DNA from: Calothrix sp. PCC 7103
GTDB taxonomy: Bacteria > Cyanobacteriota > Cyanobacteriia > Cyanobacteriales > Nostocaceae
Assembly (NCBI RefSeq): GCF_000331305.1
Contig: NZ_KB217483.1
Coordinates: 3,621-42,840 of the forward strand
Direction of reading: 5' to 3'
Length of the DNA: 39,220 nucleotides
Shown here: piece after piece, positions 6,425 through 39,220 of the stretch
Layout: each line of letters begins with the position of its first letter
Position numbering within the stretch: the first letter of the stretch is position 1
Notes under the pieces: model-generated
The model's input: only the letters and a program-made list of their open reading frames with translations
Told to the model about the DNA's origin: nothing
Database searches by the model: none
Made by a program: the position numbers and the translations under genes

Positions 6425-6544
6425 TTATTGAGCCGATACCGCTACAGGTTCTTCTGCACACTTTGAAAGCTGTTCCAAATCTGGTAACATCGCCTTGGTT
6501 ATTTCGGCAGCGCTTGCTTTTAAAGTTGTTTGCTCAATGCTCAT
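6425..6544 (-). CDS. Possible 39-residue small protein
   Basis: An ATG at 6544 opens a 39-codon frame (MSIEQTTLKASAAEITKAML, then PDLEQLSKCAEEPVAVSAQ) ending in TAA. The composition is helical and protein-like, with one Cys and no membrane segment. There is no clear ribosome-binding site, only an A-rich stretch upstream. It points the same way as the operon above it. It is unrecognised and could be a small regulator, a peptide precursor or a chance frame. Confidence 0.3.
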   Translation of the reverse strand: MSIEQTTLKASAAEITKAMLPDLEQLSKCAEEPVAVSAQ

Positions 6545-6727
6545 ATACTTTTTTTGGATAAAGTGTGAGATATATAAATTATGCTAGCAAACAAAAGACA
6601 CCTCTGTTGTAATGCCAGTTTACTACCAAGTCGCATAGTCTGGCGCCCGTGCAACATATTTTTGCAATAGGGGATTTGTTACATTCAGGCGCCCAGAAAA
6701 GCAGATATTTAATCTCAATTTCCGTGA

Positions 6728-6979
6728 TTACTTATTAACGCTTTGTGTCAATTGTTTCTCCATAGCTATTACGTGTGCTAACTCTAGCTCTAGTGCTTGC
6801 TTGCGCTTACGAATTCTTTCTAACCGTTGCGCTTGTACTTCTTTACTAAAAAATCTTTCAACCAAAGTTTCTTGTTGAGTTGGAGTTAATCGTCCGATAC
6901 CTGGGTCTTTATCTATTTCATCAAGAACCTGCCACATTTTAAGTTGTTGTTCTGTTGGAGTGTTATTAGTTTGACTCAT
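6728..6979 (-). CDS. Small coiled-coil hypothetical protein
   Basis: I chose ATG 6979 (MSQTNNTPTEQQLKMWQVLD; 83 residues) over a TTG five codons upstream because it lies only 7 bases after the stop of the preceding gene, which suggests translational coupling. The protein is charged and helical: DKDPGIGRLTPTQQETLVER resembles a short EF-hand/bacteriocin-regulator-like helix pair, and RLERIRKRKQALELELAHV is a likely coiled coil. There are no Cys residues, signal peptide or membrane segment. I do not recognise the family. Position suggests it works with the 208-residue protein upstream. Confidence 0.6.
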   Translation of the reverse strand: MSQTNNTPTEQQLKMWQVLDEIDKDPGIGRLTPTQQETLVERFFSKEVQAQRLERIRKRKQALELELAHVIAMEKQLTQSVNK

Positions 6980-6986
6980 GGTTTTA

Positions 6987-7613
6987 CTAATCAAATAATT
7001 GAGATGAACGACGGTAAGCTTGGTTAGCGAGAAATCTTTCTGCTAATTCTCTTGTAAGCAACATTTCTCCTGAACCATCAGTTTCTATGAACCCAATTTC
7101 ATTGTAACGGTATTTGGCACGAGGAATAGTAAATAATTTAACAACCCCACCAAATTGCTTAGATTGACTCTCTTTTACAATTTCTTCCACCAAAGAAGTT
7201 GCGGAGCCTTTCTTTGTTTCCGCTTGTATTTGCTCGATAACATTCCAAGGGCTATTTGTCAAAGATTCGATTGCTATAGCTCTTAATCTTTCCCCTTCGT
7301 ACTCTACTTCTACCTCTTTTATTGCTGCAATAGCTTGAAGAACTTGGTTATTATCAACTACTCCTCTGAAATCATCGATTGTTATGTCTTGGTCTCCAAA
7401 TTGTATTGCATCACTTAAAAACTGTATTTTTGATACACAATCCCAAAAAGCAGTGTTACGAGTGTTTTCTCTATTGCCTTCAAAGTAAATGTTGATGTAT
7501 TCTTGAGCTTTTAATGCCCATTCATCTAAAATGTTGACAACATCAATTGAATTTCCTGTAACGTAACTAAAAATGTTCATTATTTTGAAAAATCCCAAAT
7601 TAATTAACTTCAT
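6987..7613 (-). CDS. Hypothetical protein (208 aa)
   Basis: A soluble, acidic, mainly helical protein with no motif I can name. Features are a Trp-containing N-terminal helix (VVNILDEWALKAQEYINIYF), an acidic centre (FGDQDITIDDFRGVVDNN) and a C-terminus that looks like a small sheet domain (RYNEIGFIETDGSGEMLLTR). ATG 7580 (MNIFSYVTGNS) is an alternative start; neither start has a strong ribosome-binding site. An AT-rich stretch (7614-7740) upstream may hold its own promoter, for example TTGAAT and TTATTA about 17 bases apart. The gene is followed closely by the 83-residue gene. Confidence 0.65.
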   Translation of the reverse strand: MKLINLGFFKIMNIFSYVTGNSIDVVNILDEWALKAQEYINIYFEGNRENTRNTAFWDCVSKIQFLSDAIQFGDQDITIDDFRGVVDNNQVLQAIAAIKEVEVEYEGERLRAIAIESLTNSPWNVIEQIQAETKKGSATSLVEEIVKESQSKQFGGVVKLFTIPRAKYRYNEIGFIETDGSGEMLLTRELAERFLANQAYRRSSQLFD

Positions 7614-7784
7614 TTTATTATATTTTACAATAAAAGTAAAATATTAATTTAATGTTTATACAAATAATAATCTATTTAAATAATAGTCATTCAAAATTTA
7701 TTAAATAACTTACATTAATTAATGGTCATAATGGGCATTTATACAACGAAAAACCTCATAGCTTTCACAGTTACTGCATTTTTA
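7614..7784 (-). promoter_or_regulatory. AT-rich intergenic region, probable promoter
   Basis: This 170-bp stretch is extremely AT-rich. Read on the minus strand it contains TTGAAT followed about 17 bases later by a TATT-rich -10-like sequence, in a position to drive the 208-residue gene. The assignment is by composition only. Confidence 0.3.
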
Positions 7785-8138
7785 TCAATACTCATCTATA
7801 ATTCTTCCGGAAAGTAATAGGCGTTCTTCAGGATAAAGAAAGTAATACTCCTCTTGAGAAAGGCGTCTATAATTATGTTGCCCATGTAACAAAAAGAAAG
7901 TTTCTGTTGCTTTATTTTCGACTCTGCTGACTGGACACTGTGCTAGAACTAATCCTTTATAAAAACCAGTCACCATCACAGGAAAGAAAGTGCTGGCAAA
8001 AATACCTACCCCATTTCTCACCTCATATTCTCTACCAAGTTCCAAGTTGCCATCAATTTTACCTAGTGGAAATAGAACGCGCGGCTCTTGGCTTGGGATA
8101 ATAGGAGTGTATGGAAGAGGTAAATAAATATCAGGCAT
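7785..8138 (-). CDS. Hypothetical protein (117 aa) downstream of the Ubl operon
   Basis: The start is ATG 8138, with GGAGGA just upstream at good spacing. The protein (MPDIYLPLPYTPIIPSQEPR...) is Pro- and Tyr-rich at the N-terminus, then has alternating hydrophobic strands (GVGIFASTFFPVMVTGFYKGLVLAQC) and ends in EEYYFLYPEERLLLSGRIID. It looks like a small all-beta protein. No family is recognised. It follows the JAMM-E1 gene after 147 bp that contain a possible pseudoknot. Same strand and good ribosome-binding site suggest a partner or accessory of the ubiquitin-like system. Confidence 0.7.
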   Translation of the reverse strand: MPDIYLPLPYTPIIPSQEPRVLFPLGKIDGNLELGREYEVRNGVGIFASTFFPVMVTGFYKGLVLAQCPVSRVENKATETFFLLHGQHNYRRLSQEEYYFLYPEERLLLSGRIIDEY

Positions 8139-8200
8139 AAATTATCCTCCAAATATTTGTTAAATTGTACTCGCACACTTTAAACAGTGCCAAATCATTA

Positions 8201-8259
8201 GTGGTTAATCAAAAATAGTTAGGTTGGGTAAGGCGCCATTGAGATTAACCACAACCTAA
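8201..8259 (-). promoter_or_regulatory. Possible H-type pseudoknot after the E1 gene
   Basis: Two interlocked inverted repeats lie in the spacer. GTGGTTAATC (8201-8210) pairs with GATTAACCAC (8243-8252), and TTAGGTTG (8219-8226) pairs with CAACCTAA (8252-8259). Read as minus-strand RNA the order is S1-S2-S1'-S2', the topology of an H-type pseudoknot, with one shared base. It starts about 27 bases after the E1 stop codon. A role in transcript stability or in setting expression of the next gene is inference. Confidence 0.45.
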
Positions 8260-8285
8260 AACATTATGTTGATAGTAGTGTAAAA

Positions 8286-9749
8286 TTATTTACTACTTGA
8301 TGGAGCTTCTAGCATTCGACAAGGCAAACGGAAGCGGTCGCCTCTAGCCCGACGGCTTCTATTACTGTCGCTACAGTCTAAGCAATTCGGGTCAGCACGC
8401 GGACCTACTTCGCTAGTTTTCCTTTCTCGTGCGAAATGCACTTGATGCCGCAACTGAACTTCAGGTTTGTACAGTCCAGTAAACATCATTTTAAAATCGT
8501 TTACTGCTTGCTCGGCAGACTTAACGTTAAGTGTAATTACGCTGGGTTGAGCAATATTTTCATCTTCGACATACTGCTGATTTCGGCGTTCTGTTTCACT
8601 TAATGTTTCTTGTTGCAAGCGACCTGGCGGAATTAATTCATGACATTGCAAGCAACCGGCGTAAGCATAGGGAAGTACAGGACGAGTTGCTGTAAATATA
8701 TCACCAACTTGTTTTGTTTGCTTATCAACGGGAACTTTGGCACCTATCTGAATTCCAGGAATTAGATATTGATGTAGAATCGCATTGAAAACCAAACGGC
8801 TTTGCATCGAGTCTGTTGCTAAAAATATGAAATCAGTGTCCACTAACAACTTTGCTATTGATTCATCAACAATGTTTCCAACAATAGCGTCGTAGTGAAT
8901 GGAAGGATTAGCTTGCTTGGCGACCCTTCGAGCAACATGGACTTTATAAGCAGCCAAACGTTTGCCAAGTTTTTCTAACCAAGGAATACCTGATTTAGTA
9001 AGCCAAGTCATTGCATCCCGGTGGGTGGCGCCAACAATGCGGGGCAGATTGGTTAATTCAACTCGGTCAAAATCGATAGCGACAATATGCTCTACTCCCA
9101 AACGCGATAACCATTCATTAATCAACGAACCTCCCCCACCAAGACCAATAATTCCTACTTTTAAATTCGAGAGAATTTCTTGTCCGACATCACCAAACAT
9201 ACGTGAGTGACGGTCATACATAGGGTTGGCGATAGGCGAACGCTTTCGAGGAGAAGGATAGAGTTTGCGGATATTTGCACCAATAATAGTCATATGCTCA
9301 AGTTTATACCGACCAGAAGGAGTCCAAATATCTCCAGCTACTGCGTTTTTGGCAAATACCAACGCTCCCACTGGACCACCACGAGTGATATCAAGTAGTG
9401 CTGGGTAACCGCGTTCGTGAGATGCCATGTCATCGCTAGAGAAACTAACTTCGTCCTTACCACCATGACAATGTACGGCAACATAACAAAGGTTTTCTTT
9501 TGCACAGTAACCAGATGTCTCAGCAACAAATCTCGCCGTTAAAGCACGATAACCATGTTGACCAGGTACATAATCAATTCCATCGCGCGCTAAGAAAACT
9601 TCTCGTGCTAACAAGCGTGTACCGCGAGGAGTTTCGACTATACCAGCGACAATTACGGCGCCATGTTCGTCTCTGTCACCAGGAAAGAGATGATTTTCGA
9701 GTTTTTCAAACAATGGCGCATCGATTCTAAGTTCTAGAGGTTCTTTCAT
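8286..9749 (-). CDS. JAMM (JAB/MPN) protease-E1/ThiF adenylyltransferase fusion
   Basis: The likely role is to trim the ubiquitin-like protein (or remove it from targets) and to activate its C-terminus by adenylation. Residues 1 to about 160 form a JAB domain with the Zn motif H93-x-H95-x8-S104-x2-D107 (VHCHGGKDEVSFSSDD) and an upstream Glu (E28). Residues from about 185 form the E1 domain: GLGGGGS (202-208) for ATP, IDFDRVELTNLPR (Asp-x-Asp...Asn..Arg), and paired cysteines in AGCLQCHEL and PNCLDCS for a structural zinc. The start at ATG 9749 has AAGGAG and overlaps the end of the E2 gene by 4 bases. All key residues are present, so I expect an active enzyme. Confidence 0.88.
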   Translation of the reverse strand: MKEPLELRIDAPLFEKLENHLFPGDRDEHGAVIVAGIVETPRGTRLLAREVFLARDGIDYVPGQHGYRALTARFVAETSGYCAKENLCYVAVHCHGGKDEVSFSSDDMASHERGYPALLDITRGGPVGALVFAKNAVAGDIWTPSGRYKLEHMTIIGANIRKLYPSPRKRSPIANPMYDRHSRMFGDVGQEILSNLKVGIIGLGGGGSLINEWLSRLGVEHIVAIDFDRVELTNLPRIVGATHRDAMTWLTKSGIPWLEKLGKRLAAYKVHVARRVAKQANPSIHYDAIVGNIVDESIAKLLVDTDFIFLATDSMQSRLVFNAILHQYLIPGIQIGAKVPVDKQTKQVGDIFTATRPVLPYAYAGCLQCHELIPPGRLQQETLSETERRNQQYVEDENIAQPSVITLNVKSAEQAVNDFKMMFTGLYKPEVQLRHQVHFARERKTSEVGPRADPNCLDCSDSNRSRRARGDRFRLPCRMLEAPSSSK

Positions 9750-10129
9750 AAACTCCTTAACCAGACTAGTACTTTACTTAACTTAGTTGCAGCAGTATCA
9801 ATGGTGGCATTCCACCGATTTGAACGCCGTGACACTTGGATTACTTGACGGTTATGCCAATTCACAGGAAACTGTAATCCAGCACCTTGAATAAGACCAT
9901 CAATTCGGCGCAATGACCCATCAAGATAATGCGGGTAAACATCCGCATAAGGATATTGGTAAGAAATTGTAAAACCAATCCAAGAGGTAGAAGGTAAGTA
10001 ACGTTCGCCAATAAGCAAATCATGAACAATGACGTATGCTCCTCCCTGCCCTTCAGATGTAACTTCGACGCGATGCTTCGGAAAAGTTTGCTGAATTTCT
10101 TCAATTGCTCGTTGAACTTCTGGTGTCAT
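9746..10129 (-). CDS. E2-like (UBC fold) conjugating protein without cysteine
   Basis: The 127-residue protein has E2/UBC-family features: an N-terminal helix (MTPEVQRAIEEIQQTFPKHR), strands GGAYVIVHDLLI and STSWIGFTISYQYP, a YPHYLDGSLR turn in the position of the conserved E2 proline/loop, and a C-terminal helix. Position between Ubl and E1 genes supports the call. The protein contains no Cys at all, so a classic thioester intermediate is impossible; a Ser, Thr or other route, or a scaffold role, must be considered. The start ATG 10129 has AGGAGG. It begins 10 bp after the Ubl stop and overlaps the E1 start. Confidence 0.78.
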   Translation of the reverse strand: MTPEVQRAIEEIQQTFPKHRVEVTSEGQGGAYVIVHDLLIGERYLPSTSWIGFTISYQYPYADVYPHYLDGSLRRIDGLIQGAGLQFPVNWHNRQVIQVSRRSNRWNATIDTAATKLSKVLVWLRSL

Positions 10130-10138
10130 TGGTGCCTC

Positions 10139-10417
10139 CTATGAGTTATCATCAGGTGCAGTTGCGCGAAAACGCTGTCCCTCATGCAGAGTAATGGTTT
10201 CGCAATCTCCAATTTGGTTAAGTTCAGAATCGCATTTGACCTCAAAGAGTACGAAATCTTCTTGAATGGCAACACACTGCTTGATCGCAGTTTGTTTAAT
10301 TTCTAAGCCTGTAACCTTATGATTCGAGAACGTTACAGGACGTTCGTTAACTGTAACAGTAATGGTTTTTGGCTTTTTCGCCAATAATTCTGCATTTTGT
10401 ATCGATTCAACTTGCAT
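10139..10417 (-). CDS. Ubiquitin-like protein (multiubiquitin-type beta-grasp)
   Basis: This 92-residue protein is the probable modifier of the system. Residues 18 to about 85 match the multiubiquitin-type beta-grasp pattern: KTITVTVNERPVTFSNHKVT (two strands), GLEIKQTAIKQ (helix), then a Phe/Val strand and TITLHEGQRFRATAPDDNS at the end. It holds a single Ubl unit. The C-terminus is DDNS and not the GG of eukaryotic ubiquitin, so processing or activation may differ. The start at ATG 10417 has AAGGAG 8 bases upstream. First of three tightly packed genes (Ubl, E2, JAMM-E1). Confidence 0.85.
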   Translation of the reverse strand: MQVESIQNAELLAKKPKTITVTVNERPVTFSNHKVTGLEIKQTAIKQCVAIQEDFVLFEVKCDSELNQIGDCETITLHEGQRFRATAPDDNS

Positions 10418-10458
10418 GGAAAACTCCTTGAGAATTTAATTTTGGTTTTGGGATTCGA

Positions 10459-10494
10459 TTTTTGGGGAGTACCTGATTTTGCACTCCCCAAAAA
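10459..10494 (-). promoter_or_regulatory. Long hairpin between the YjzC-like and Ubl genes
   Basis: TTTTTGGGGAGT (10459-10470) pairs perfectly with ACTCCCCAAAAA (10483-10494) around a 12-base loop. There is no extra T-run beyond the stem, so a plain intrinsic terminator is not certain. Since the T5/A5 parts belong to the stem, it may act as an attenuator or RNA-stability element between the first gene and the Ubl-E2-E1 part. Confidence 0.5.
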
Positions 10495-10514
10495 GAAATT
10501 GTTCGGAAAACGAA

Positions 10515-10703
10515 CTACTTAGAGCGCTTGTGCTTGGTTGCGTCAACCAGCTTATAACGCTGACCTGCTTGCGGAGTTGGAGGTAGAGGTTCGCCTTTGG
10601 TAACAGTGCGTTCCTCTCCTGTCCCACCGCCACGAGGTCCAGTAATCTCGTATTGACCAGACTGTTTTGCGATTTCGCCTGGTTTCTTTAGTTCGTCAGC
10701 CAT
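10515..10703 (-). CDS. YjzC-like small basic protein
   Basis: ATG 10703 (MADELKKPGEIAKQSGQYEI) is chosen because AAGGA lies at proper spacing; an upstream TTG (10733) falls in the regulatory repeat. The protein is 62 residues with the pattern KPGEIAKQSGQY..GPRGGGTGEERTVTKGEPLPPTP..GQRYKLVDATKH, typical of small YjzC-type proteins. Function is unknown; the fold may be a small beta barrel. It is first in the minus-strand ubiquitin-like operon, 98 bp ahead of the Ubl gene and separated from it by a strong hairpin. Confidence 0.75.
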   Translation of the reverse strand: MADELKKPGEIAKQSGQYEITGPRGGGTGEERTVTKGEPLPPTPQAGQRYKLVDATKHKRSK

Positions 10704-10714
10704 AGATTTCCTTT

Positions 10715-10837
10715 TTGTTTGATTATCGGACAATAATAGCTTGATACTAACACACTGTTTTAAAATCTAACAATAGGATGAGTGATTTTATGATCAAATT
10801 GTCTTAGAATCAAGGTATATGTCCGATAATCAAACAA
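10715..10837. promoter_or_regulatory. Divergent promoter region with inverted 30-bp repeat
   Basis: GTCCGATAATCAAACAA occurs at 10821-10837 on the plus strand and, inverted, at 10715-10731. The similarity reaches further upstream (ATCAAG then TAT-rich) to about 30 bp per copy (10809-10837 and 10715-10745). The two copies lie just ahead of the divergent YjzC-like and XRE-ImmA genes, so they are good candidates for an operator bound by the XRE protein. On the minus strand TTGTTA and TAGTAT 18 bases apart could be a promoter. Binding is inferred, not shown. Confidence 0.6.
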
Positions 10838-10855
10838 CGCTTAGGTTACAAGGAG

Positions 10856-12067
10856 ATGAATTACGCAGAACTAGGTCGCCGGATTCGCGTAGCTAGGGAG
10901 GAAGCTTCGCTGTCTCAAGATGCCGTAGCACAGCATCTTGACATGCCGCGTTCTGCTGTGTCTTTAATTGAGAGTGGCAAACGTAAGGTAGACAGTCTGG
11001 AACTCGAACGATTCTCCCGTTTAGTTGGTAAAAATATCCTGTTTTTTTTTGATGAAGTTTCTGAAACTACAGAAAAAAGTAATTCTGAGGAAGATGACCC
11101 AACTCAAATTCTTTTTAGTGCCAATCAAGTAGTCGATATTTCGCCGGATAAGGAGCAAATTGAGCGATTTCGTAAGTTTCACCGCAATTTTGGCGATTTA
11201 GCTCGAAAGCTGAATCGTATAAGTGAACCATTTTCTATGGAACCGCTACACAACGTATTTAAACCTACTCCGGCAGCAGCTAAGTGGATGGCAACGCAAG
11301 AACGTGCCCGATTAGGAATTTCAATTTTCAGCCCTATTAGAAATATGTGGGAGATTTTGGAAAATGAAGGTGTCAGGGTGATGGCATGGAATCTAGCAAC
11401 ACCTAAATTAGGGGGATGTTTTATTTTTTCTCCTTTGCTTGGTTCCTTTGTTTTAGTTAAAAGGAATTTGGGGGATTATTCAGCTAATATGCTGAATTTT
11501 GTCTTAGCACATGAATATTGTCATCACTTAATTCATCGTCAGCAAAAAGGTATCGCTTGCGATCCTAATGGTAATTATCGCCGACCGGAAGAGTATTTTG
11601 CTCAATGGTTTGCTGCTAATTTCCTTATGCCAGAAGAAGCAATTGTTCCAAGATTGACTAATTATTTGGAGAAATCAGATGGAGAAATTACTGCTGAAAT
11701 TGTTATGCACTTGGCTTTAGATTTTGGAGTTAGTTACAAAGCAATGCTCTTCCGTCTAGCAGACAAAAGAGTTGAATTAATTGACAAAAGCGTCTCTCAG
11801 AAACTCGCTAAAGCAAAACCAAAACAACTTCTTGAGACAATTGGTCGTTCTGTTCCTCGTTTGGAAAAAATCAATCACTTTCCTAATGAATATATGGAGA
11901 TGAACTTTGATGCATATCGACTAGGCTATATCAGTTTGAGTAAATTAGCAGAACTGCTGGAAATTACTGTGGAAGAAGCAAAAAATCTATTAAATGCAAG
12001 AGAGATTCCTATTGATTTAGGTGTTAATTCTGAGTTAGAACTTTTAAGCGATATTGAAAACGCTTAA
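10856..12067 (+). CDS. XRE-family regulator fused to ImmA/IrrE metallopeptidase
   Basis: Residues 1-60 are an XRE helix-turn-helix (LGRRIRVAREEASLSQDAVA, then MPRSAVSLIESGKRKVDSLE). The centre (about 150-290) is an ImmA/IrrE (COG2856) Zn-peptidase with HEYCHH and a downstream Glu in RRPEEYFAQWFAANFLMPEE. The C-terminus carries another small helical DNA-binding-like segment. AGGAG directly abuts the ATG, an unusually short spacing, so a different start or atypical initiation is possible. It is divergent from the Ubl operon and shares its repeat motif, and it precedes a PIN-domain gene by 34 bp. Such fusions often de-repress stress or defence genes by proteolysis; that is inference here. Confidence 0.85.
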   Translation: MNYAELGRRIRVAREEASLSQDAVAQHLDMPRSAVSLIESGKRKVDSLELERFSRLVGKNILFFFDEVSETTEKSNSEEDDPTQILFSANQVVDISPDKEQIERFRKFHRNFGDLARKLNRISEPFSMEPLHNVFKPTPAAAKWMATQERARLGISIFSPIRNMWEILENEGVRVMAWNLATPKLGGCFIFSPLLGSFVLVKRNLGDYSANMLNFVLAHEYCHHLIHRQQKGIACDPNGNYRRPEEYFAQWFAANFLMPEEAIVPRLTNYLEKSDGEITAEIVMHLALDFGVSYKAMLFRLADKRVELIDKSVSQKLAKAKPKQLLETIGRSVPRLEKINHFPNEYMEMNFDAYRLGYISLSKLAELLEITVEEAKNLLNAREIPIDLGVNSELELLSDIENA

Positions 12068-12101
12068 TTAATTAGTGTGAGAAGTAAACGGGAACAAAAT
12101 A

Positions 12102-12680
12102 GTGGAGTCAAAAAGTAAAGAATCAGAGGCATCGCCAATAATTTTTGATAGCGCTGTACTGAGTAATTTTGCTATTGCACAGGTTTTCCATGTCCTTCAA
12201 AGGCTCTATACAGGTAGAGCCTTTGTTCCTAAAGCTGTCCAACGCGAAATTCAAGCACGTATTAAAGGTGCTTCCACGTGTGCTAGTGCGAAAAATCTAA
12301 CGCAACTGGAAGAAATTAATCAGGCGTTAAATTGTGGTTGGTTACAGATACCTCCAGAGCAAGTTAACCCGAACGATGATGCTATTGAGTTGCGGCTACA
12401 ATTAGAGTACAGCAAAAGGTTTAGTATGGGAGAGTCTGAAGCAATGGCGATTGCTCGTAACCGGAACTGGGTTTTTGCTTCTGATGATGGGGCTGCTAGA
12501 AATTTTGCTAAAGAACGAGATATTCGTCTAACAGGAACTCTAGGTATTCTTATCAAAGCGGTTCAAACTAAAATTCTTTGTCTATCTCTTGCCGATCTCA
12601 TTCACGCGCAGATGATTGATGAAGGTTATTGCTCTCCTTTATCATATGAAAATGGCATTTCTAGCTATCGCAATCTATAA
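12102..12680 (+). CDS. PIN-like domain protein (DUF3368 type)
   Basis: The 192-residue protein has the PIN acidic residues: IIFDSAVLSNFA (first Asp near the N-terminus), MGESEAMAIAR (Glu), and FASDDGAARNFA (Asp pair). DUF3368-type PIN proteins are predicted Mg-dependent ribonucleases and often pair with XRE or ImmA-type partners as toxin-antitoxin-like modules. A GTG start (12102) follows the upstream gene by 34 bp, so the two are probably co-transcribed. Here it may be an effector or RNA-level regulator of the cassette. Confidence 0.75.
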   Translation: MESKSKESEASPIIFDSAVLSNFAIAQVFHVLQRLYTGRAFVPKAVQREIQARIKGASTCASAKNLTQLEEINQALNCGWLQIPPEQVNPNDDAIELRLQLEYSKRFSMGESEAMAIARNRNWVFASDDGAARNFAKERDIRLTGTLGILIKAVQTKILCLSLADLIHAQMIDEGYCSPLSYENGISSYRNL

Positions 12681-13035: not shown

Positions 13036-13138
13036 GTCAAACTCGACCCAACTATATAGTGTTAGGGTCGAGGGGAATATTACTATTCCACCCCTCCCAT
13101 CCGAAACCGTGCTTGCGACTTTCACCGCACACGGCTAC
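13036..13138 (-). ncRNA. Group II intron domains V and VI, 3' end
   Basis: On the minus strand, right after the maturase stop codon, CCGTGTGCGGTGAAAGTCGC and AAGCACGGTTTCGG form the classic domain V hairpin (about 13102-13136). Domain VI is CTCGACCC (13042-13049) pairing with GGGTCGAG (13065-13072). The intron most likely ends at GAC, 13036. Domain V is the catalytic core of the ribozyme. The 5' domains are not seen because the intron is broken upstream. Confidence 0.8.
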
Positions 13139-14470
13139 TCAACATGTATCCTTTTTGTCATTACAAGACTTCCCTGTTTTATGACCTTTATAAAACGGAA
13201 TATCGTTTACCCACTCCCAGTCAATTTTTTCCCAAAATTGGAATAGTTTTTCTTGTATATTGGAGTGTTTCTTCTTCCGAATTTCTATTAAGTCAATGGC
13301 AGTTTTTTCATCATGACAATGCCGATGGAGAAGTTGTTTATTTTTCCATTCATCCTTACCGCCGTTTGCTCTAGGGATTAGATGGTCTTCTTCAATTACA
13401 TCTCCATCTTTGAAGTGCAATCCGCACCAGGGACATTTACCTTTTTGCTTTTTCAACAATTCTGCCTTATAATTAGGCATTTCCGGGTGTTTCCCTAGCC
13501 TTGTACTCCAATATACTAGGTCGCCATCATAAAGGCTTTTATCGCCTTTAACTTTTACATAATCAGTACTACTGCAACTGAATTGACTATGCTTTAGTAA
13601 CCGTAGGGGGTTCGCGTCCCCTGACCTGGTTGCGAATACCCAGTTTTCGTTTTCTATGGTCGTCCAGTATTTGCTGTGAGCATCTTTACTGTTACCACAT
13701 CTACGTTTTGCCCAACGTCGAAGTTTCAGGTATGTGAGGTTATCTTGTTTTGATAGTTCTCCGGTTGATTTAGCATCGGAGTTTATGTAGTAGGAAGTCC
13801 ATCCCCTGATGACAGGGTTTAGGTCTTTGATGAGTGCCGCTTGGGGCGATGACCTATGTTTGAAAATGACTCTTCCAATTTCCTCAGTATGTGCCTTACT
13901 CGCCTTCGCGGTTGGGGTGATGAGGGTGTTAAAACCTAATATTGTCCCGTAACTATTTTTGTTACTACGGTACTTCCCAGCGGGGTATTGTTTTATATGA
14001 TGACCGAGGAAGTCAAATCCAGCAACACCATCCTCACTTAATTCAGGTTTGAATGTATGAGTTAGTCGGGTTTTAGAGGGTTTTAATTCAAGTCCTATGC
14101 CAGCTAACCATTCCGAGATAATTTCTCGGCATCTTTGGACGACGGCTTTATCTTCATGTAATATCACAAAATCGTCCGCATAACGTATAACGTCTGGGGT
14201 GGCAAAATATTTACCTTTCTTGTGATACCAGGTTTCTCTGCCGCGTTTTGACATTGCAGGAAATTCCTGTTTTATCAAATTTTCTATGCCGTGGAGGGCA
14301 ATATTTGCTAACAGTGGCGAAATCACGCCACCTTGCATCGTGCCCTCAGATGTAGCAGTAAATACCCCTTGGTCTACGACTCCAGATTTAAGCCAAGCTT
14401 TTATTTGTTGCCTGATTTTTCCTTTTATTTTCAACTTTTGGAGTAAATAATCATGGTTGATGCCGTCAAA
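13139..14470 (-). pseudogene. Group II intron reverse transcriptase/maturase, C-terminal part
   Basis: The frame begins at FDGINHDYLLQKLKI, with no valid start. It contains RT motifs TMQGGVISPLLANIALHG and VIRYADDFVILHED (YADD active site), a maturase X domain (IRGWTSYYIN) and a C-terminal HNH endonuclease (CPWCGLHFKDG, EEDHLIPRANGGKDEWKN, HRHCHDEK). The first RT part (RAGRSCHDAIEAI... to DISKCFD) lies at 16920-17122 on the same strand, beyond a serine-recombinase element. Removing that element would rejoin the CFDGINH motif. The N-terminus upstream of IPT is lost. Confidence 0.82.
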
Positions 14471-14541
14471 CAATCCCCAATGTTAATGCCCACGTCAAGA
14501 ACCCGGCAGAGGATTTAAGACAAATTGAGGTAACTGACCCA

Positions 14542-14850: not shown

Positions 14851-15011
14851 TTTATGACCACATCCGAACTGGTGACCCTCGAACATGTGAACCGCAAAGC
14901 GATAATATACATTCGTCAGTCAACTCCACACCAATTAATCAGCAACCAAGAAAGTCTGCGCCTGCAATACGCTCTGCGCCAAAGAGCTATCGAATTAGGT
15001 TGGTCAGATAG
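14757..15011 (+). CDS. Small overlapping protein of the recombinase element
   Basis: ATG 14757 follows GAGG and gives MPIEPGAVWSRLTPELQEAI, then IEEIQSVLREVIYDHIRTGD and a Ser/Pro-rich tail (84 residues). The VWSRLTPELQ...EVI pattern matches, from memory, the middle gene of related three-gene cassettes. It overlaps the gene before it by 94 bp and the recombinase after it by about 158 bp in other frames. Such nested overlap is unusual but the protein part before residue 40 looks constrained. The function is unknown. Confidence 0.5.
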   Translation: MPIEPGAVWSRLTPELQEAIIEEIQSVLREVIYDHIRTGDPRTCEPQSDNIHSSVNSTPINQQPRKSAPAIRSAPKSYRIRLVR

Positions 15012-16899
15012 CAACATTGAGGTAATTGATTGTGACTTAGGAATAACTGGGGCTTCTGCCGAGCAGCGACCAGGCTTTAAAGATATGTTAGCTCAGGTAA
15101 CATTGGGGGTAGTAGGGATTATACTTTCCTATGATGTAACACGATTGTCACGCAATTGCTCAGATTGGTATCCCTTATTGGATTTATGCGGTTACAAAAA
15201 TTGTTTGATCGCTGACCGAGATTCTGTGTATAATCCAGGTAATGCTAATGGTCGTTTGTTACTCGGACTAAAGGGACAAATCTCAGAGGTTGAGTTGCAT
15301 ACAATTCGGGCAAGATTGACAGCTGGGATTATCAGCAAAGCCCAGCGCGGAGAGTTAGGGCTAACGTTACCTGTTGGTCTAGTTCGTGATGAGTTAGGAG
15401 TCGTACATAAAGACCCAAATCGTGAAGTACAAGACCGAATTGACCTGATTTTTCAGAGTTTTTTGAAGCTAAGATCAGCTTGTAAAGTGTTGCGGATGTG
15501 CAACGAGCAAAACTTATTAATCCCCAGACGCGACAGATTTGGAGACATTATATGGCGCAAGCCGAGCGTGGCTGCAATCATATCAATGTTAAAAAATCCT
15601 GCTTACGCAGGCGCATTTGTTTATGGTCGCACACGTGCGGTGAGAAGTGGGTTGGCGCCGTATCAATCGCAGCAACAGCAACAGCCGATAGAAGAATGGA
15701 AAATTCGGGTTAACGATAAATATCCGGCTTATATCAGCTGGGAAGTTTACGAACGTATTCAAGCTCAACTTTTAGATAACTATGCTGAATATGACCGCAA
15801 CAAAACCCGTGGTATTCCCCGTCAGGGTTCAGCTTTGCTGCATGGCTTAGTTTACTGTGGAGAATGCGGTCACAAAATGGTTGTACAATATAAAGGAGCT
15901 ACGCGCTATATTTGTAATTATCTACGCCAACAATATGGCGTTCCTGTCTGCCAGTATATTCCGGCGGATGCAATCGATGAACACGTCGTTCAGGCGTTTT
16001 TTGCTGCGATGAAAGCAGTGGAAATTGATGCTTACCAAAAAGCTGTGAAAGCTCAAAAAGAAACGGATGATGCCATAGAGCGAGCGCATTGTCAGCAAAT
16101 CGAACGCTTGCGCTATACTGTCGCGCTCTGTGAGCGACAATTTAGTCGAGTAGACCCAGATAACCGATTAGTTGCGGCAGAATTGGAACAACGTTGGGAA
16201 AATGCCTTACGTGATTTGAAGCTTGCAGAAGCGGCTTATACCAAACAAAAGCCATCTAAAAATGCGACTTCAATACCTACCGAATTAAAAACTGCTTTGA
16301 GTGCTATCGGGCAGAAACTTCCTGAGCTTTGGTCAGGTGAAACTCTGACTCGTGTACAGAAAAAAGCCTTGTTGCGTTGCTTGATTGATAAAGTAGTTAT
16401 TCATCGTATTGTTCGCGACCAAGTTCGTACTCGTATTATTTGGAAAGGTGGTGACACTACAACTGTTGACCTTCCAATCCCTGTTGGTTCACTCGCAGAA
16501 CTTACAAAAGCAGATGAATTAGAAGCCCAGGTTGTTACTCTCAGCACTGAAGGTTTCGATGACGAACTTATTGCCCAACAACTGACCGCACAAGGACATC
16601 GCTCACCGCTATGCAAAACTTTATTACCTAGTACAGTTAAAACTATCCGACTTAAACATCACATTTTTCACAATCACAGTCAGTCTCATCCCCGTCATAT
16701 TTCTGGCTGTCTCACAATTCCCCAAGTTGCCACAGCTGTTGAGGTTCCACCACATTGGATATATGATCGTATTCATAAGGGAACGATTCAAATCAAAAGA
16801 GATCAGACAACAGGGCTTTATCTATTCCCAGATTCGCCGGATACATTAGTACAAATTAATCAGCTAAAAACTGGACAAATTGACAACTTATGTTTTTGA
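14854..16899 (+). CDS. Large serine recombinase (681 aa)
   Basis: This enzyme probably moves the element that carries it by site-specific recombination. Residues 15 to about 150 are the resolvase catalytic domain, with the nucleophile in YIRQSTPHQL and the arginine-rich LSYDVTRLSRNCSDW. A Recombinase domain follows (LKNPAYAGAFVYGR), then a zinc ribbon (LVYCGECGHKM ... CNYLRQQYGVPVC), a long coiled coil, and a C-terminal helix-turn-helix (LTIPQVATAVEVPPHWIYDR). Length fits TnpX-like recombinases. GAGGTG lies upstream. It is the third gene of the three-gene cassette. Confidence 0.85.
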   Translation: MTTSELVTLEHVNRKAIIYIRQSTPHQLISNQESLRLQYALRQRAIELGWSDSNIEVIDCDLGITGASAEQRPGFKDMLAQVTLGVVGIILSYDVTRLSRNCSDWYPLLDLCGYKNCLIADRDSVYNPGNANGRLLLGLKGQISEVELHTIRARLTAGIISKAQRGELGLTLPVGLVRDELGVVHKDPNREVQDRIDLIFQSFLKLRSACKVLRMCNEQNLLIPRRDRFGDIIWRKPSVAAIISMLKNPAYAGAFVYGRTRAVRSGLAPYQSQQQQQPIEEWKIRVNDKYPAYISWEVYERIQAQLLDNYAEYDRNKTRGIPRQGSALLHGLVYCGECGHKMVVQYKGATRYICNYLRQQYGVPVCQYIPADAIDEHVVQAFFAAMKAVEIDAYQKAVKAQKETDDAIERAHCQQIERLRYTVALCERQFSRVDPDNRLVAAELEQRWENALRDLKLAEAAYTKQKPSKNATSIPTELKTALSAIGQKLPELWSGETLTRVQKKALLRCLIDKVVIHRIVRDQVRTRIIWKGGDTTTVDLPIPVGSLAELTKADELEAQVVTLSTEGFDDELIAQQLTAQGHRSPLCKTLLPSTVKTIRLKHHIFHNHSQSHPRHISGCLTIPQVATAVEVPPHWIYDRIHKGTIQIKRDQTTGLYLFPDSPDTLVQINQLKTGQIDNLCF

Positions 16900-16919
16900 G
16901 AGGAGTATCAAGATGCCCA

Positions 16920-17122
16920 ATCAAAACACTTTGATATGTCGGCATCTAACACAAATTTGGGTTTGTATCTAATGCAGTTAAAAATTGCCTCGATTGCATC
17001 ATGACATGACCTTCCGGCTCTAAACCCGTATGAGTTAGGTTCAAATCGCGCTTCCCATTCTGGCTCTAAGGCAAAAAGGACGAGTGCTTGCAAGGCGCGG
17101 TCTAAAATTGTAGGCACGCTAT
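16920..17122 (-). pseudogene. Group II intron reverse transcriptase, internal fragment
   Basis: This is the RT part that precedes 13139-14470: VPTILDRALQALVLFALEPE, then RFEPNSYGFRAGRSCHDAIE and KPKFVLDADISKCFD. It breaks off at IPT, where the second recombinase element begins. About 90-120 N-terminal residues of the maturase are missing and are not found beyond that element, so a deletion has also occurred. Confidence 0.78.
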
Positions 17123-17164
17123 AATAACACTGCACATAACTTCAAGTCTCTTTTGGGAAGTTGT

Positions 17165-17602
17165 GTGACAATCACCAACTCCATCCACCCGTTGTATGGT
17201 CAGTCTGTTGAGATACTACAAATCCGCAAAGTTGGGCAAGAGACAAAAGTCACCATAAAAAGTCCGTTGGGAGGATTTTTGTCTCTTCCAGCTTCAGAAA
17301 CTGACTTATGGATGCAACAAGCAAGCATTACCCAACGATCTGAGAAATTTTCACCACAAAAACTATTGCGTTTGAGTGAATGGGTAGGAGAGCGCAAAAA
17401 ATATTTTACGGAAGAATTTTCTTGTGTCTCCGAAAATAAAGGAGTCGAACACAGGAAAAAAAATCATGGTACAAAGGCATCTACTACCAACTCAAAACCC
17501 CGAAAACTCAGAAAGGCTAGGTCGTCTAACTCTTCTAACAGCACGGTTAGTGGACAAGATGCTCAGAAACCAAAGTCCCGACCCGGCGATTGCAAGGAGT
17601 AA
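17165..17602 (+). CDS. HPLYGQ-type small protein of the second recombinase cassette
   Basis: I chose GTG 17165 (VTITNSIHPLYGQSVEILQI) because conserved sequence starts there; an upstream TTG (17153) is less likely. The N-terminal 70 residues form a DUF5372-like unit (HPLYGQ...FLSLPASETDLWMQQ). The remainder is Lys/Ser-rich and probably disordered or DNA binding. It parallels the first gene of the 14542 cassette. It is followed with overlap by a short gene and then by the recombinase. Confidence 0.65.
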   Translation: MTITNSIHPLYGQSVEILQIRKVGQETKVTIKSPLGGFLSLPASETDLWMQQASITQRSEKFSPQKLLRLSEWVGERKKYFTEEFSCVSENKGVEHRKKNHGTKASTTNSKPRKLRKARSSNSSNSTVSGQDAQKPKSRPGDCKE

Positions 17603-17615
17603 ACCAGATGAATAG
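17466..17615 (+). CDS. Small overlapping protein ahead of the recombinase
   Basis: ATG 17466 gives MVQRHLLPTQNPENSERLGR and LTLLTARLVDKMLRNQ, with a compact helical pattern (49 residues). It overlaps the end of the HPLYGQ gene and the start of the recombinase. Its place matches the middle gene of the 14757 cassette. The protein itself is unrecognised and could be partly spurious. Confidence 0.45.
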   Translation: MVQRHLLPTQNPENSERLGRLTLLTARLVDKMLRNQSPDPAIARSKPDE

Positions 17616-19686
17616 TAAAATTAGAACAACGCATCTGGAACGGCGTGCAGTTGTGTACTTAAGACAATCAACACCTAACCAAATAGAATTACACCGTGAA
17701 AGTACAGAAAGACAGTATGCTTTGGCTGACCGTGCGTTAAACTTGGGCTGGGACAAAAGCCAAATATCCGTTTTAGATAGTGACCTAGGTAAAAGTGGTC
17801 AAACAACAACAGGACGGGAAGATTTTCATCGACTAATGGCTGCTGTTGGTTTAGGAGAAGTCGGGGCTGTTTTAGCTTTGGAAGCTTCAAGATTTTCTCG
17901 TTCGCAAGCAGATTGGCATAAACTATTAGATATCTGTGCCCTAACAGATACATTAGTAATTGATCACGATGGAATTTACGACCCAAATGATTTTAATGAC
18001 CGAGTAATATTAGGGTTTAAGGGAACTTGGAGCCACACGGAACTGCATGGTATGCGTTTACGCTTACAAGGCGCCAAACTAAATAAAGCTAAAAAAGGAG
18101 AGTTGCGCTGTTCTCCACCTACTGGCTATGTATACGACCCAGAAGGACAACTGGTGCTAGACCCAGATGAAGGTGTAGTTGCAGCAATAAAGCTAGTTTT
18201 CCAAAAGTTCCATGCTCTTGGAACAGCATTCAAGGTAATGCGCTACTTTTGTGTCAACCAAATTCCTTTTCCAAGAAGACGTTGGCGACCTGGGCACATA
18301 GGCACACTTTATTGGGGACCAGCTAACCTTAGCCGTATAACAGCAATTCTGCGTAATCCAACCTATACAGGAACTTACGTATATGGTAGACGGCGTAGTC
18401 TAAATGTAATTGAGAATGGGCAAATAACCAAGGTGAAAACCCAATTATTACCCCAAGAAGAGTGGAAAGTTGTAATCCATGATGCTCACGAGCCTTACGT
18501 TAGTTGGTCTGAATATTTAGCTAATTGTGAACAACTCAGACGCAATAACACAGGCTATATATCTGACGGATGCCAAAGAACACCAAGAGAGGGTTTTGCT
18601 CTTCTTCAAGGTTTAGTTATTTGTGGTAAATGCGGACGACGTATGAGTCCTCGCTACCACGGTGATGGTGGCAAGAGAGTGGCTTACGAATGTACACAAG
18701 CTCGAAAACAAGATGGTAGCGTGGGTGTTTGCTGGAGCGTTGCAGGTGCAGCAATTGATACAGCGGTTGAGGCACACGTACTTGAAGCTTTAACTCTTGA
18801 ACAACTCAATATTTCTCTAGCTGTACTTTCCGAGCTTGAACATCAAGCACATGAGGCAGATAAAACATGGCAACTCAGGTTAGAAAGGGCACATTATGAA
18901 GCTGATAGAGCTTTCCGGCAATATGATGCTACCGAGCCAGAGAATCGTTTAGTCGCCCGTACACTAGAAAAGCGATGGAATGAAAAATTACAACAGTTAA
19001 CGGAATTAGAAGAGGCATATAATAAGGCGCACCAAGTAGAAAGGTTGGAATTGACGGAAACTCAAAGGCAACAAATATTACAATTAGCCAATGATATTCC
19101 AACAATTTGGCACGCAAGTAGCACTACTCACCAAGAGCGTAAAGAGATACTAGGGTTGTTAGTAAAACAAGTTGCGATTACGCCAATAGATACTCCAGAA
19201 CGCTCTACTCGTATCCAAATACTTTGGCATACTGGAGCTATAAGTGAGCTAATTGCAATACGTCCAACAACTACAGAAAAATACCGAACACCCAACCAAG
19301 TGATTCAACTAGTTGAAGAATTAGTTCCTGGTCGAACTGATACTGAAATTGCTTTGGAACTAAATCGTCGGGGTTTACTTAATACTACTGGGCGACCTTT
19401 TACCAAAAAAGGTGTTGCTTGGCTTCGCTGGAAATATGGTCTTGATAAACCTTTAAGTGCCCCACTTGTTGCAAAATCAGGGATTAGCCCTGAAGGTTAC
19501 TATTCTACTAGTGCCCTAGCCGAAAAATTGGGTGTTGGAATTCATACCATCCATTATTGGCGAGAAAAAGGCATTATCCAGGGTTTTCAAGAAAAGGATA
19601 AAAGCCCTTGGTGGTATATAGTTACACCTGAAGTTTTAGAAACTTTACGTGACAAAATCCGCCGTGTGCCAGTTAAATTTGAATAA
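17608..19686 (+). CDS. Large serine recombinase (692 aa)
   Basis: The start is ATG 17608 (MNSKIRTTHLERRAVVYLRQ) with AAGGAG 8 bases upstream; a TTG at 17590 lies inside this site. Catalytic domain: VVYLRQSTPNQIELHRES with the nucleophilic Ser, and EASRFSRSQADWHKLLD. Then a Recombinase domain (LRNPTYTGTYVYGRRRS), a zinc ribbon (LVICGKCGRRM ... CTQARKQDGSVGVC), a long coiled coil, and a C-terminal MerR-like helix-turn-helix (YYSTSALAEKLGVGIHTIHY). It is a relative of the 14854 recombinase and ends the second three-gene cassette. It seems intact. Confidence 0.85.
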   Translation: MNSKIRTTHLERRAVVYLRQSTPNQIELHRESTERQYALADRALNLGWDKSQISVLDSDLGKSGQTTTGREDFHRLMAAVGLGEVGAVLALEASRFSRSQADWHKLLDICALTDTLVIDHDGIYDPNDFNDRVILGFKGTWSHTELHGMRLRLQGAKLNKAKKGELRCSPPTGYVYDPEGQLVLDPDEGVVAAIKLVFQKFHALGTAFKVMRYFCVNQIPFPRRRWRPGHIGTLYWGPANLSRITAILRNPTYTGTYVYGRRRSLNVIENGQITKVKTQLLPQEEWKVVIHDAHEPYVSWSEYLANCEQLRRNNTGYISDGCQRTPREGFALLQGLVICGKCGRRMSPRYHGDGGKRVAYECTQARKQDGSVGVCWSVAGAAIDTAVEAHVLEALTLEQLNISLAVLSELEHQAHEADKTWQLRLERAHYEADRAFRQYDATEPENRLVARTLEKRWNEKLQQLTELEEAYNKAHQVERLELTETQRQQILQLANDIPTIWHASSTTHQERKEILGLLVKQVAITPIDTPERSTRIQILWHTGAISELIAIRPTTTEKYRTPNQVIQLVEELVPGRTDTEIALELNRRGLLNTTGRPFTKKGVAWLRWKYGLDKPLSAPLVAKSGISPEGYYSTSALAEKLGVGIHTIHYWREKGIIQGFQEKDKSPWWYIVTPEVLETLRDKIRRVPVKFE

Positions 19687-37823: not shown

Positions 37824-38130
37824 CTTTTTTTGAGTACCCGCCTTATTCTGTCGGGACTCAGCTTTATCGAGTGTTCGTGTTCTAATTTCTGGGCGAGTTG
37901 AAGGCTATTGTATGTACGCGGTTCTTCTCGAAGGCATTTTTCCAAAAACACGATGTCGGTTTCCGTCCATTTTGGCTTTCTACCCCTACCAGGTTTCTCC
38001 CAAAGCGCTTCTAGACCAAGATTCTCCCATTTGTTTAAAACCTCTCTCACGGTTTGAGCAGTCAAATCAAAGTGAGCAGCTATTTTTTCCACATACCAGC
38101 CATGCGCGTTCAGCCTAATTATTTCGTCGG
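37769..38130 (-). pseudogene. IS630-family transposase, N-terminal part (exon)
   Basis: The protein part reads PDEIIRLNAHGWYVEKIAAH, FDLTAQTVREVLNKWENLGL, WEKPGRGRKPKWTETDIVF and RIRRVLKK, the helix-turn-helix pair of IS630 transposases. The 5' exon is out of the window, since a group II intron interrupts the gene at 38131. The frame continues by -1 shift into 37823. Confidence 0.8.
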
Positions 38131-38202
38131 GTAAGATTGGCAGGTCGCCCTGCCGCACTCCCCTAAGAACCGGACATGACAGTTACCCATCATCCGGCTC
38201 AA
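38131..38202 (-). ncRNA. Second group II intron, domains V and VI
   Basis: Minus-strand GAGCCGGATGATGGGTAACT and GTCATGTCCGGTTCT form domain V (about 38163-38202). Domain VI is GGCAGG (38139-38144 on the plus strand) pairing with CCTGCC (38149-38154). The intron probably ends in ...TTAC at 38131. Its 5' part is beyond the window. Confidence 0.82.
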
Positions 38203-39220
38203 GCCTCAGTGACTACCCAATCATTATCTGTTAACTCAGGTTTATCCTTTTTAGACCCCTTAGTATGAGTTATCTTGTGACAGGCTTCATGCATCCAAAC
38301 TAAGTTTTCCAGTTTATCCGTACCGCCTTTATTTACTTGATTAATGTGATGCAGATGAAGTGGCTCTCTGTTGTGGATGTGTTCGCCGCATACTGGGCAT
38401 TTATTGCCTTGTCTTTTGGCTATCTTTTCATTTTTGCTATTAGCTGCGAAAATAAATTTACCATATTGTGTGGCTCTGTTTTCCCAGTATTTAATCAAGT
38501 TAGGGTCATCTGAAGAGTTTCTGCCCGCTACTTTAACGTGTCTGACTATCCCAACAGAAGAAGCTTTGAATAAAGCGAGTACTTTTTCTTTTCCTCTTCG
38601 GTCTTTAGTTATTGTTAGGAAGTCCCATTTATTATACTCTGGGTGTTTTATGCCGACATTGAAGTATCTTTTTACTACTTCTTTACGACTTAAGCCTCCG
38701 TGCTTTCTGCGTGCCCAGTTATATAGTGCCTTCCATATTTCCTTATCAAAGTAGCTGAGAACTTCTTTGGAGCAAACAGTTCGGTAGTAATATGCAAATC
38801 CTCTAATAATGGGGTTTAAGTAGTTGATAACAGCTGAAACGGATATATTATTGTTGTTTTTCAGCCATGTCTTGATTTCTTGGATTTTTTCGAGAACTTT
38901 TTGTTTTTCAGGTTTAATGATAGTTTTACCATTGTATTTCCTGATATTAAAACCTAGATAATCAATACCTTGTTCGGTATGTCTTATCTTAGTTTTTTCG
39001 ATATTAAGTTCCAGACCTCTTTCTTGAAGTAAGGTGGTTATATGAGCTATAACTACCTCCATACATTCAGCGTTAGGTGCTGTCACGATAAAGTCGTCGG
39101 CGTATCTAATGAAACCAAATGGACATTTATCTTCAACTTTTTTTACCTGCGGTTTGCCTTGATTTTTACCTTGTCTGTTAATGACTACGTTGCCATCTTT
39201 GTCCTTTTTGTAGCGCTCAA
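38199..39220 (-). CDS. Group II intron reverse transcriptase/maturase (partial, runs off the edge)
   Basis: The frame is open to the right edge and includes the RT active site at about 39100-39110 (FIRYADDFIVTAP), then RGLELNIEKTKIRHTEQGID and YLGFNIRKYNGK, a maturase X domain (LNPIIRGFAYYYRTVCSKEV), and an HNH endonuclease (CPVCGEHIHNREPLHLHHIN, NLVWMHEACHK). It is intact where visible, so this intron may be active. It is a different lineage from the one at 13139: domain V and protein sequence differ clearly. Confidence 0.85.
   Translation of the reverse strand, partial: ERYKKDKDGNVVINRQGKNQGKPQVKKVEDKCPFGFIRYADDFIVTAPNAECMEVVIAHITTLLQERGLELNIEKTKIRHTEQGIDYLGFNIRKYNGKTIIKPEKQKVLEKIQEIKTWLKNNNNISVSAVINYLNPIIRGFAYYYRTVCSKEVLSYFDKEIWKALYNWARRKHGGLSRKEVVKRYFNVGIKHPEYNKWDFLTITKDRRGKEKVLALFKASSVGIVRHVKVAGRNSSDDPNLIKYWENRATQYGKFIFAANSKNEKIAKRQGNKCPVCGEHIHNREPLHLHHINQVNKGGTDKLENLVWMHEACHKITHTKGSKKDKPELTDNDWVVTEA

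Follow-up and report, generated by a model that had tools for sequence, protein, structure and literature searches.

The 39,220-nucleotide stretch of Calothrix sp. PCC 7103 DNA analysed here (the window; C12:3621-42840, C12 being a contig of 1.56 Mb in a genome of 11.58 Mb) contains an operon of the Bub type encoding a ubiquitin-like protein (Ubl), an E2-like protein and a JAMM-E1 fusion, together with an XRE-ImmA controller and a PIN-domain protein. The initial annotation of this DNA listed nine open reading frames (ORFs), all of which were confirmed where it had placed them, with XRE-ImmA and PIN divergent from the other seven (Table 1). The tight operon that it described is apparent for Ubl, E2 and E1, the last two sharing 4 bp (9746-9749), as proposed, and the first two being separated by 9 bp rather than 10. 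It does not extend to the YjzC-like gene, 97 bp from Ubl, or to the genes for the 117- and 208-residue proteins, which follow gaps of 147 and 171 bp, respectively. Stretches fetched from other genomes for comparison, or from elsewhere in this one, carry labels of the form L###.

Table 1. Features of the Bub-type locus and its immediate surroundings, in window coordinates.
Feature	Position	Strand	Match or remark
YjzC-like small protein, 62 residues, first operon gene	10518-10703	-	Pfam YjzC 0.02, below cut-off
Ubl (BubA-like), one beta-grasp domain, ending in APDDNS	10142-10417	-	Multi_ubiq 1.5e-9, over cut-off
E2-like (BubB-like), 127 residues, cysteine-free	9749-10129	-	Prok-E2_E 3.8e-4, below cut-off
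JAMM-E1 fusion (BubCD-like), 487 residues	8289-9749	-	ThiF 1.1e-26; 9ea4 BubCD E 3.2e-20 over 12-419
117-residue protein, without family	7788-8138	-	No match in family searches
208-residue protein	6990-7613	-	Weak matches only, none over cut-off
83-residue protein, last gene	6731-6979	-	L004 homology stops at its stop (6728)
Controller, 403 residues: XRE helix-turn-helix, M78/ImmA metalloprotease (HExxH at 219), C-terminal UPF0175 antitoxin-like domain	10856-12064	+	
PIN-domain RNase-like protein (DUF3368-like), GTG start	12102-12677	+	PADLOC PDC-S70 1.1e-16
Candidate operator arm 1, adjoins YjzC start	10715-10732	+	18-bp perfect inverted repeat with arm 2
Candidate operator arm 2, adjoins XRE-ImmA start	10820-10837	-	18-bp perfect inverted repeat with arm 1
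Piece matching part of the Hma-slot gene group at about C12:405 kb (L028 13074-13270; 91.5% identity, 200 bp)	6439-6634	.	

The Ubl ends in serine, a residue found at this position in 71 of its 76 homologues, 68 of which terminate in DDNS. The eight other ends comprise two DDKS, one DHCS, one DISY, two short tails past DDNS and two that are apparently frameshifted or truncated. Among 15 distant plasmid loci, picked out of 40 listed entries (111 records in all), seven encode a Ser-ended Ubl (six DDNS and one HEDS; L013, L014, L111-L115), seven carry Gly at or near the Ubl end (L015, L016, L116, L118-L121) and a haloarchaeal locus (L117) has no separate Ubl gene. In the alignment the Ser shares a column with the Gly that ends the L116, L118 and L119 proteins; a C-terminal Gly, absent from the window protein, is also present in Citrobacter BubA and the Synechocystis Ubl. 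An annotated DUF6527 gene lies close by in all seven Gly-type distant loci and in none of the seven Ser-type loci, as judged from PLSDB gene tables that are incomplete.

The E2-like protein of the window contains no cysteine, as is the case in 28 of the 43 aligned sequences, and on this evidence cannot be a classical cysteine E2. Ser100, Arg101, Ser103 and Lys116 are invariant in all 43 sequences, and visual comparison places the Ser of the motif also in the Citrobacter and Synechocystis proteins (both WSRH) and in L116, L118 and L119, where the form is FSWH. Bub reportedly proceeds through an oxyester intermediate. In an alignment of 121 E1 sequences (the window protein and the 120 listed of 3722 matches) the JAMM residues His93, His95, Ser104 and Asp107 are kept throughout and Glu28 is kept in all 119 sequences without a gap, while Pfam makes no call on this N-terminal domain. 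The ATP-site residues that were checked are retained bar one S208A substitution and single gaps, and four zinc-type cysteines are present in at least 118 of the 121 proteins. At the usual place of the E1 cysteine the alignments reveal no cysteine. Cys477, found in 117 of 119 sequences, is not claimed as an active site because it is absent in L013-L016; it could be a clade-specific cysteine.

These features bear on the possibility that the Ubl is activated and not conjugated to proteins, serving as a carrier, as a small product or, while held on the E2-like protein, as a non-covalent binder. The absence of cysteine from the E2-like protein and from the canonical place in E1, the Ser in place of Gly at the end of the Ubl, and the cysteine-less UEV folds that rank second among the structural matches would all fit such a role. 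The JAMM residues, intact in all 121 sequences, argue instead for a bond to cut, and the Bub paper, to go by its title, concerns protein conjugation through a diverged pathway. We regard a role without conjugation as unlikely.

Sequence searches of the PDB with the Ubl and the E2-like protein returned no relative, and a fold search was needed to reveal their likeness to BubA and BubB. By that search the E2-like domain has the BubB fold without a catalytic cysteine. The fusion of JAMM to the N-terminus of E1 is homologous to BubCD over a region in which the active-site residues are kept. The single-domain Multi_ubiq Ubl also fits Bub, or type 6e of Iyer 2006, where the part consulted notes one species with a single domain. 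The initial annotation had pointed to Bil, in which E2 and E1 rely on catalytic cysteines according to the available text of PMC11354881; as these are lacking here, membership of Bil was rejected in favour of Bub, the closest pathway. The wording ‘Bub-type' is preferred because the terminal Gly is missing here, though the accessible Bub literature does not state that residue as defining; the Ser-ended clade may or may not be Bub proper.

The operon is rare. E1 was found in 1 of 386 genomes in a sample of the phylum (the window genome itself) and in 3 of 388 in a sample of the order, and thus the argument is carried by a search of the family, in which 12 of 217 genomes encode E1, 11 of them closely related (77-100% identity). 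In G545 (E1 at 33% identity) the fetched 18 kb contain no Hma gene. In comparison with relatives, YjzC (0.07-0.09), Ubl, E2, E1, XRE-ImmA and PIN have ratios of non-synonymous to synonymous change (dN/dS) of 0.07-0.21, indicating conservation beyond chance, although the values reflect shared history.

The controller is a single chain in which the helix-turn-helix and Peptidase_M78 domains exceed the Pfam cut-offs. The HExxH motif is retained in all five aligned controllers, and UPF0175 is matched at 1e-3 in each of them (best 3.1e-9). This fused form occurs in 5 of the 217 family genomes (E <= 1e-60) and in 2 of 72,556 plasmid records (E <= 1e-30), one of which is a plasmid from one of the five genomes. 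Of the six resulting loci, five are Bub-type (the window, L009, L011, L012 and L025), while in L026 the controller, PIN and operator precede a type II cyclic oligonucleotide-based antiphage signalling system (CBASS) consisting of a cyclase, E2-E1, JAB and a SAVED-nuclease. XRE-ImmA, PIN and YjzC accompany the Ubl genes in the four Bub-type loci besides the window, of which L009 and L012 are damaged. The conserved neighbourhood postulated earlier is supported for these three genes and, among the fetched loci, not supported in general for those encoding the 117-, 208- and 83-residue proteins. The acidic residues of the window PIN are complete (Asp16, Glu49, Glu111, Glu113 and Asp128-Asp129); among the four other aligned PINs, Asp16 is replaced by Gly in L026 and Glu111 by Ala in L011. 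Copies of YjzC at 89-92% identity were found only in Bub loci (L009, L011, L012 and L025), with a degenerate one in L034 (89% over 53 residues). The view that YjzC is a Bub-only domain was nevertheless rejected, as related domains (~45-58% identity) form the C-terminus of ~225-residue Nostocaceae proteins (L036, L049 and others), and G405 has a standalone copy (65%) with no Bub gene within 3 kb.

The 152-bp intergenic region between the divergent genes contains the paired candidate operator. Both 18-bp arms are kept in all six fused-controller loci with 0-3 changes, including that preceding CBASS. When the bases were shuffled, 2 of 1500 trials gave a repeat of at least 18 bp; self-overlapping palindromes are included in that measure, and hence the case for an operator rests on conservation.

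In five further Bub loci (L005-L008 and L010, of which L006 and L010 are near copies) split CapH/CapP-like genes occupy the place of the fused controller. The position is conserved despite the change of controller type, and by sequence comparison the regulator is exchangeable. A tree of the core proteins is not sorted by controller type, although, given its weak inner support (50-76 at several nodes), it can bear only part of the case for regulator swapping. According to the accessible text of PMC13373217, CapH+CapP or CapW adjoin 219 of 544 Bub operons, and related CapKS/VapKSC logic has been shown. The CapH/CapP-style control suggested by the initial annotation agrees with XRE and M78 beside the operon, but not as separate chains; as it is one 403-residue chain, the controller may work like CapH+CapP rather than be it. 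The annotation's notion of one regulated system is partly right: the recurring switch and conserved operator speak for it, while the regulator is exchangeable, three of the genes are found among the fetched loci only in L004, and the XRE-ImmA and PIN pair also precedes CBASS and so does not belong to a fixed machinery of conjugation.

Toxin-antitoxin (TA)-like pairs lie at the controller place in three of the 15 distant Bub loci. In a Rhodococcus aetherivorans plasmid (L115 4646-6113) a fused HigA-M78 and a HigB-like toxin are divergent from a DDNS-type Bub operon, while Xre/RES (L119 2066-3156) and Fic (L120 2111-2901) genes are divergent from Gly-type operons. In Mesorhizobium huakuii (L113 2447-5800) a UvrD-like helicase that carries PD-(D/E)XK and an N-terminal M78 protease domain directly precedes the Bub operon. 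L096 (1524-3701) preserves a relic of a second array, in which PIN, both operator arms and the controller's C-terminal end adjoin a DUF7680 gene.

It is conceivable that XRE-ImmA and PIN are an ordinary type II TA pair that keeps the island in place and hitch-hikes without controlling tagging. The presence of the same pair beside CBASS, its relic in L096, where there is no Ubl operon, and further annotated TA genes within these arrays are compatible with such a role. As far as PMC2701414 was accessible, XRE-COG2856 and COG2886 are linked to PIN toxins, and the combination of XRE-COG2856 and PIN has been predicted to be a TA type. Against this view, the pair is divergent from the Ubl operon at the place that CapH/CapP-like genes fill in sister loci, and the cargo-side operator arm persists even where the cargo is the unrelated set of CBASS genes; we consider simple hitch-hiking rather improbable.

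In relatives, tblastn over the fetched loci reveals this gene order: HmaC (DUF499), a 142-residue protein (DUF7680), E1, E2, Ubl and (YjzC), then controller and (PIN), HmaB (DUF1156) and a HmaA-like helicase. PADLOC identified HmaB (1.7e-71) and HmaC (1.5e-95); the helicase matches several PADLOC defence helicase models, HmaA among them, though not first. ARMADA, the first guess for the array, was dropped since PADLOC and the consulted part of PMC12839542 favour Hma/DUF499. HmaC (E <= 1e-100) is encoded by 31 of the 217 family genomes, in some at only 33-35% identity, and lies within 10 kb of E1 in 8 of 11 close loci, or 9 of 12 when a Nostoc linckia NIES-25 plasmid is added, the window being counted. 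The exceptions are the window, L034 (degenerate, with a HmaA-like fragment by eye) and L009 (no Hma neighbour). These sequence data identify the Hma array as the usual home of the operon in relatives. A word beginning ‘ubiquitin' does not occur in the main texts of PMC12839542 and PMC12458937 as available, and among the matches listed in searches of the open literature no account joined Hma or DUF499 with a Ubl; subscription papers were not covered, so absence is not established.

The window contains none of HmaA, HmaB and HmaC, which lie ~390 kb away on the same contig. In Calothrix sp. HK-06 (L004) the array is still joined: L004 57-3142 corresponds to window 9814-6728 (94%) and L004 3227-7023 to L028 (C12:392-412 kb; 95.6%), placing the break in the 84 bp between L004 3142 and 3227. 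Judged from this alignment, the array has been split, and one of its halves lies in the window. The slot is variable; in a survey of 12 stretches showing both borders, three of which hold Bub and were picked for that, it is empty or nearly so in L091 (123 bp), L104 (188 bp, with a PIN fragment) and L105 (123 bp). Four same-strand ORFs (294, 136, 115 and 185 residues) now occupy it in L028 (11878-14221; C12 ~404-406 kb); none has a PADLOC match and the 294-residue protein has no Pfam match. Relatives of the 185/115-residue pair are also present in L104 and L105. In L006, L010 and L012 a pair encoding a 96-residue protein and a PIN (p96, PIN165) lies at the hmaB start, with a 49-codon hmaB-like start remaining upstream.

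The surroundings of the locus look mobile from their sequence. Two group II intron ends (Rfam; 13061-14473 and 38126-39086) adjoin ORFs that by eye resemble reverse transcriptases with an HNH end, 14854-19686 contains a tandem pair of large serine-recombinase-like ORFs, each preceded by a small ORF (by eye), and the ORF list includes transposase remains, again by eye. Together with the separation from the Hma half within the 84-bp interval and the visible damage to three relatives (L009, with PIN and E1 truncated; L012, with the XRE frame broken and Ubl-E2-E1 partly lost; and the degenerate L034), the introns, transposases and recombinases on both sides could signify a decaying remnant of a Hma array that no longer works. 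We doubt this, as the core ORFs are all full length with their active-site residues kept, and their dN/dS values, albeit shaped by shared history, are low.

Among the fetched loci the genes for the 117-, 208- and 83-residue proteins occur only in L004, a sister genome (no wider protein search was run for them), and a fixed nine-gene system was rejected on this ground. The 208-residue gene is 99% identical to L004 in nucleotides, compared with 94% for the nearby E1, and the respective dS values (0.016 vs 0.183) point to a different history. The dN/dS values of the 117- and 208-residue genes (0.60 and 0.89, the latter from few changes) are not telling; that of the 83-residue gene is 0.15.

On balance, we lean towards the view that the locus is a cysteine-poor, Bub-type tagging operon under a portable repressor-antitoxin switch. 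Reading induction, tagging and PIN release from the anatomy of the locus, we infer that in resting cells the controller would bind both operator arms, silencing its own operon with PIN and the Ubl operon, while its UPF0175 tail would mask PIN. Damage during phage attack, probably single-stranded DNA as for CapH+CapP, would trigger the M78 protease; cleavage of the controller chain would then induce the Ubl operon and free PIN. E1 would adenylate the Ubl C-terminus (Ser92), the E2-like scaffold, carrying no thioester, would help E1 to join Ubl to proteins, and JAMM would remove it again, with RNA cleavage by PIN as a second line. In relatives, the tagging operon and its switch would act behind the front-line, restriction-like Hma system.

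Several observations weigh against this model. The UPF0175 match of the window controller (7.5e-6; 26 bits against a cut-off of 27.9) falls just below threshold, that of PIN to DUF3368 (0.01) is also below its cut-off, and the PIN beside CBASS in L026 may be inactive because its first catalytic Asp is lost. A sigma-70 scan found no excess of promoter-like sites (20, compared with 17.1 +/- 3.8 in shuffles). The five loci with CapH/CapP-like genes lack YjzC and an intact PIN of the window kind (L005 retains two PIN fragments), and neither is therefore required by the tagging core. The window copy, severed from Hma amid mobile DNA, could be stranded, and according to PMC13373217 protection by Bub against phage is yet to be demonstrated.

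A more daring extension, which we hold to be improbable, is that the cascade dispenses with a cysteine thioester, the DDNS end and the Ser-Arg of the E2-like protein mediating oxyester-type or direct-adenylate transfer, and that one chain uniting repressor, protease and antitoxin domain would by the same cut free the tagging operon, or CBASS, and the PIN RNase as a second line behind Hma. Two aspects of the locus were unexpected: Ser in place of Gly at the Ubl end, and the operon being cargo inside the Hma array of relatives. If the interpretation is true, it would add a clade of non-glycine-ended ubiquitin-like modifiers, represented in this analysis by cyanobacteria, actinobacteria, rhizobia and Deinococcus, and would also offer a concrete test of the part played by a cysteine-less E2 in tagging. 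The locus would represent defence systems stacked in an array with a shared slot, Hma standing in front, the cargo being Bub, nothing or other genes, and the switches being interchangeable; as the same operator precedes Bub and CBASS, the switch is directly testable.

Among known systems, Bil (BilABCD) likewise unites Ubl, E1, E2 and JAMM in one operon, in contrast with the present proteins having cysteines at the catalytic E2 and E1 places. The DUF499-centred, BREX-related Hma system, as described in the accessible part of PMC12839542, shares the DUF499 ATPase, DUF1156 methylase and helicase that flank the operon in relatives, whereas the window itself is without Hma genes. The three-component XRE-COG2856/PIN TA of Makarova 2009 (PMC2701414, available text) also combines a fused HTH-protease and a PIN toxin in one operon, while here the pair lies opposite a Bub or CBASS operon, with the paired operator between them. 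VapKSC/CapKS (PMC13373217, in the portion seen) provide a damage-sensing control pair before Bub or CBASS, another form having a VapC-type PIN toxin, but employ kinase-STAS rather than protease-HTH, and here toxin and immune-type operon share one locus. In CapH+CapP, too, a repressor of the XRE class and an M78 protease are encoded divergently from an immune-type operon, but here the two are joined in a single chain that ends in UPF0175 and is followed by a PIN gene. From Bub and type 6e of Iyer 2006 the locus differs in its single Ser-ended (DDNS) Ubl, separate E2-like gene, YjzC-like gene and placement inside Hma, and the seven Ser-ended plasmid loci differ in having no annotated DUF6527 gene; it resembles them in the Ubl, the E2-like fold without catalytic cysteine, the JAMM-E1 fusion, the sporadic, often plasmid-borne distribution and the adjoining XRE/M78 controller.

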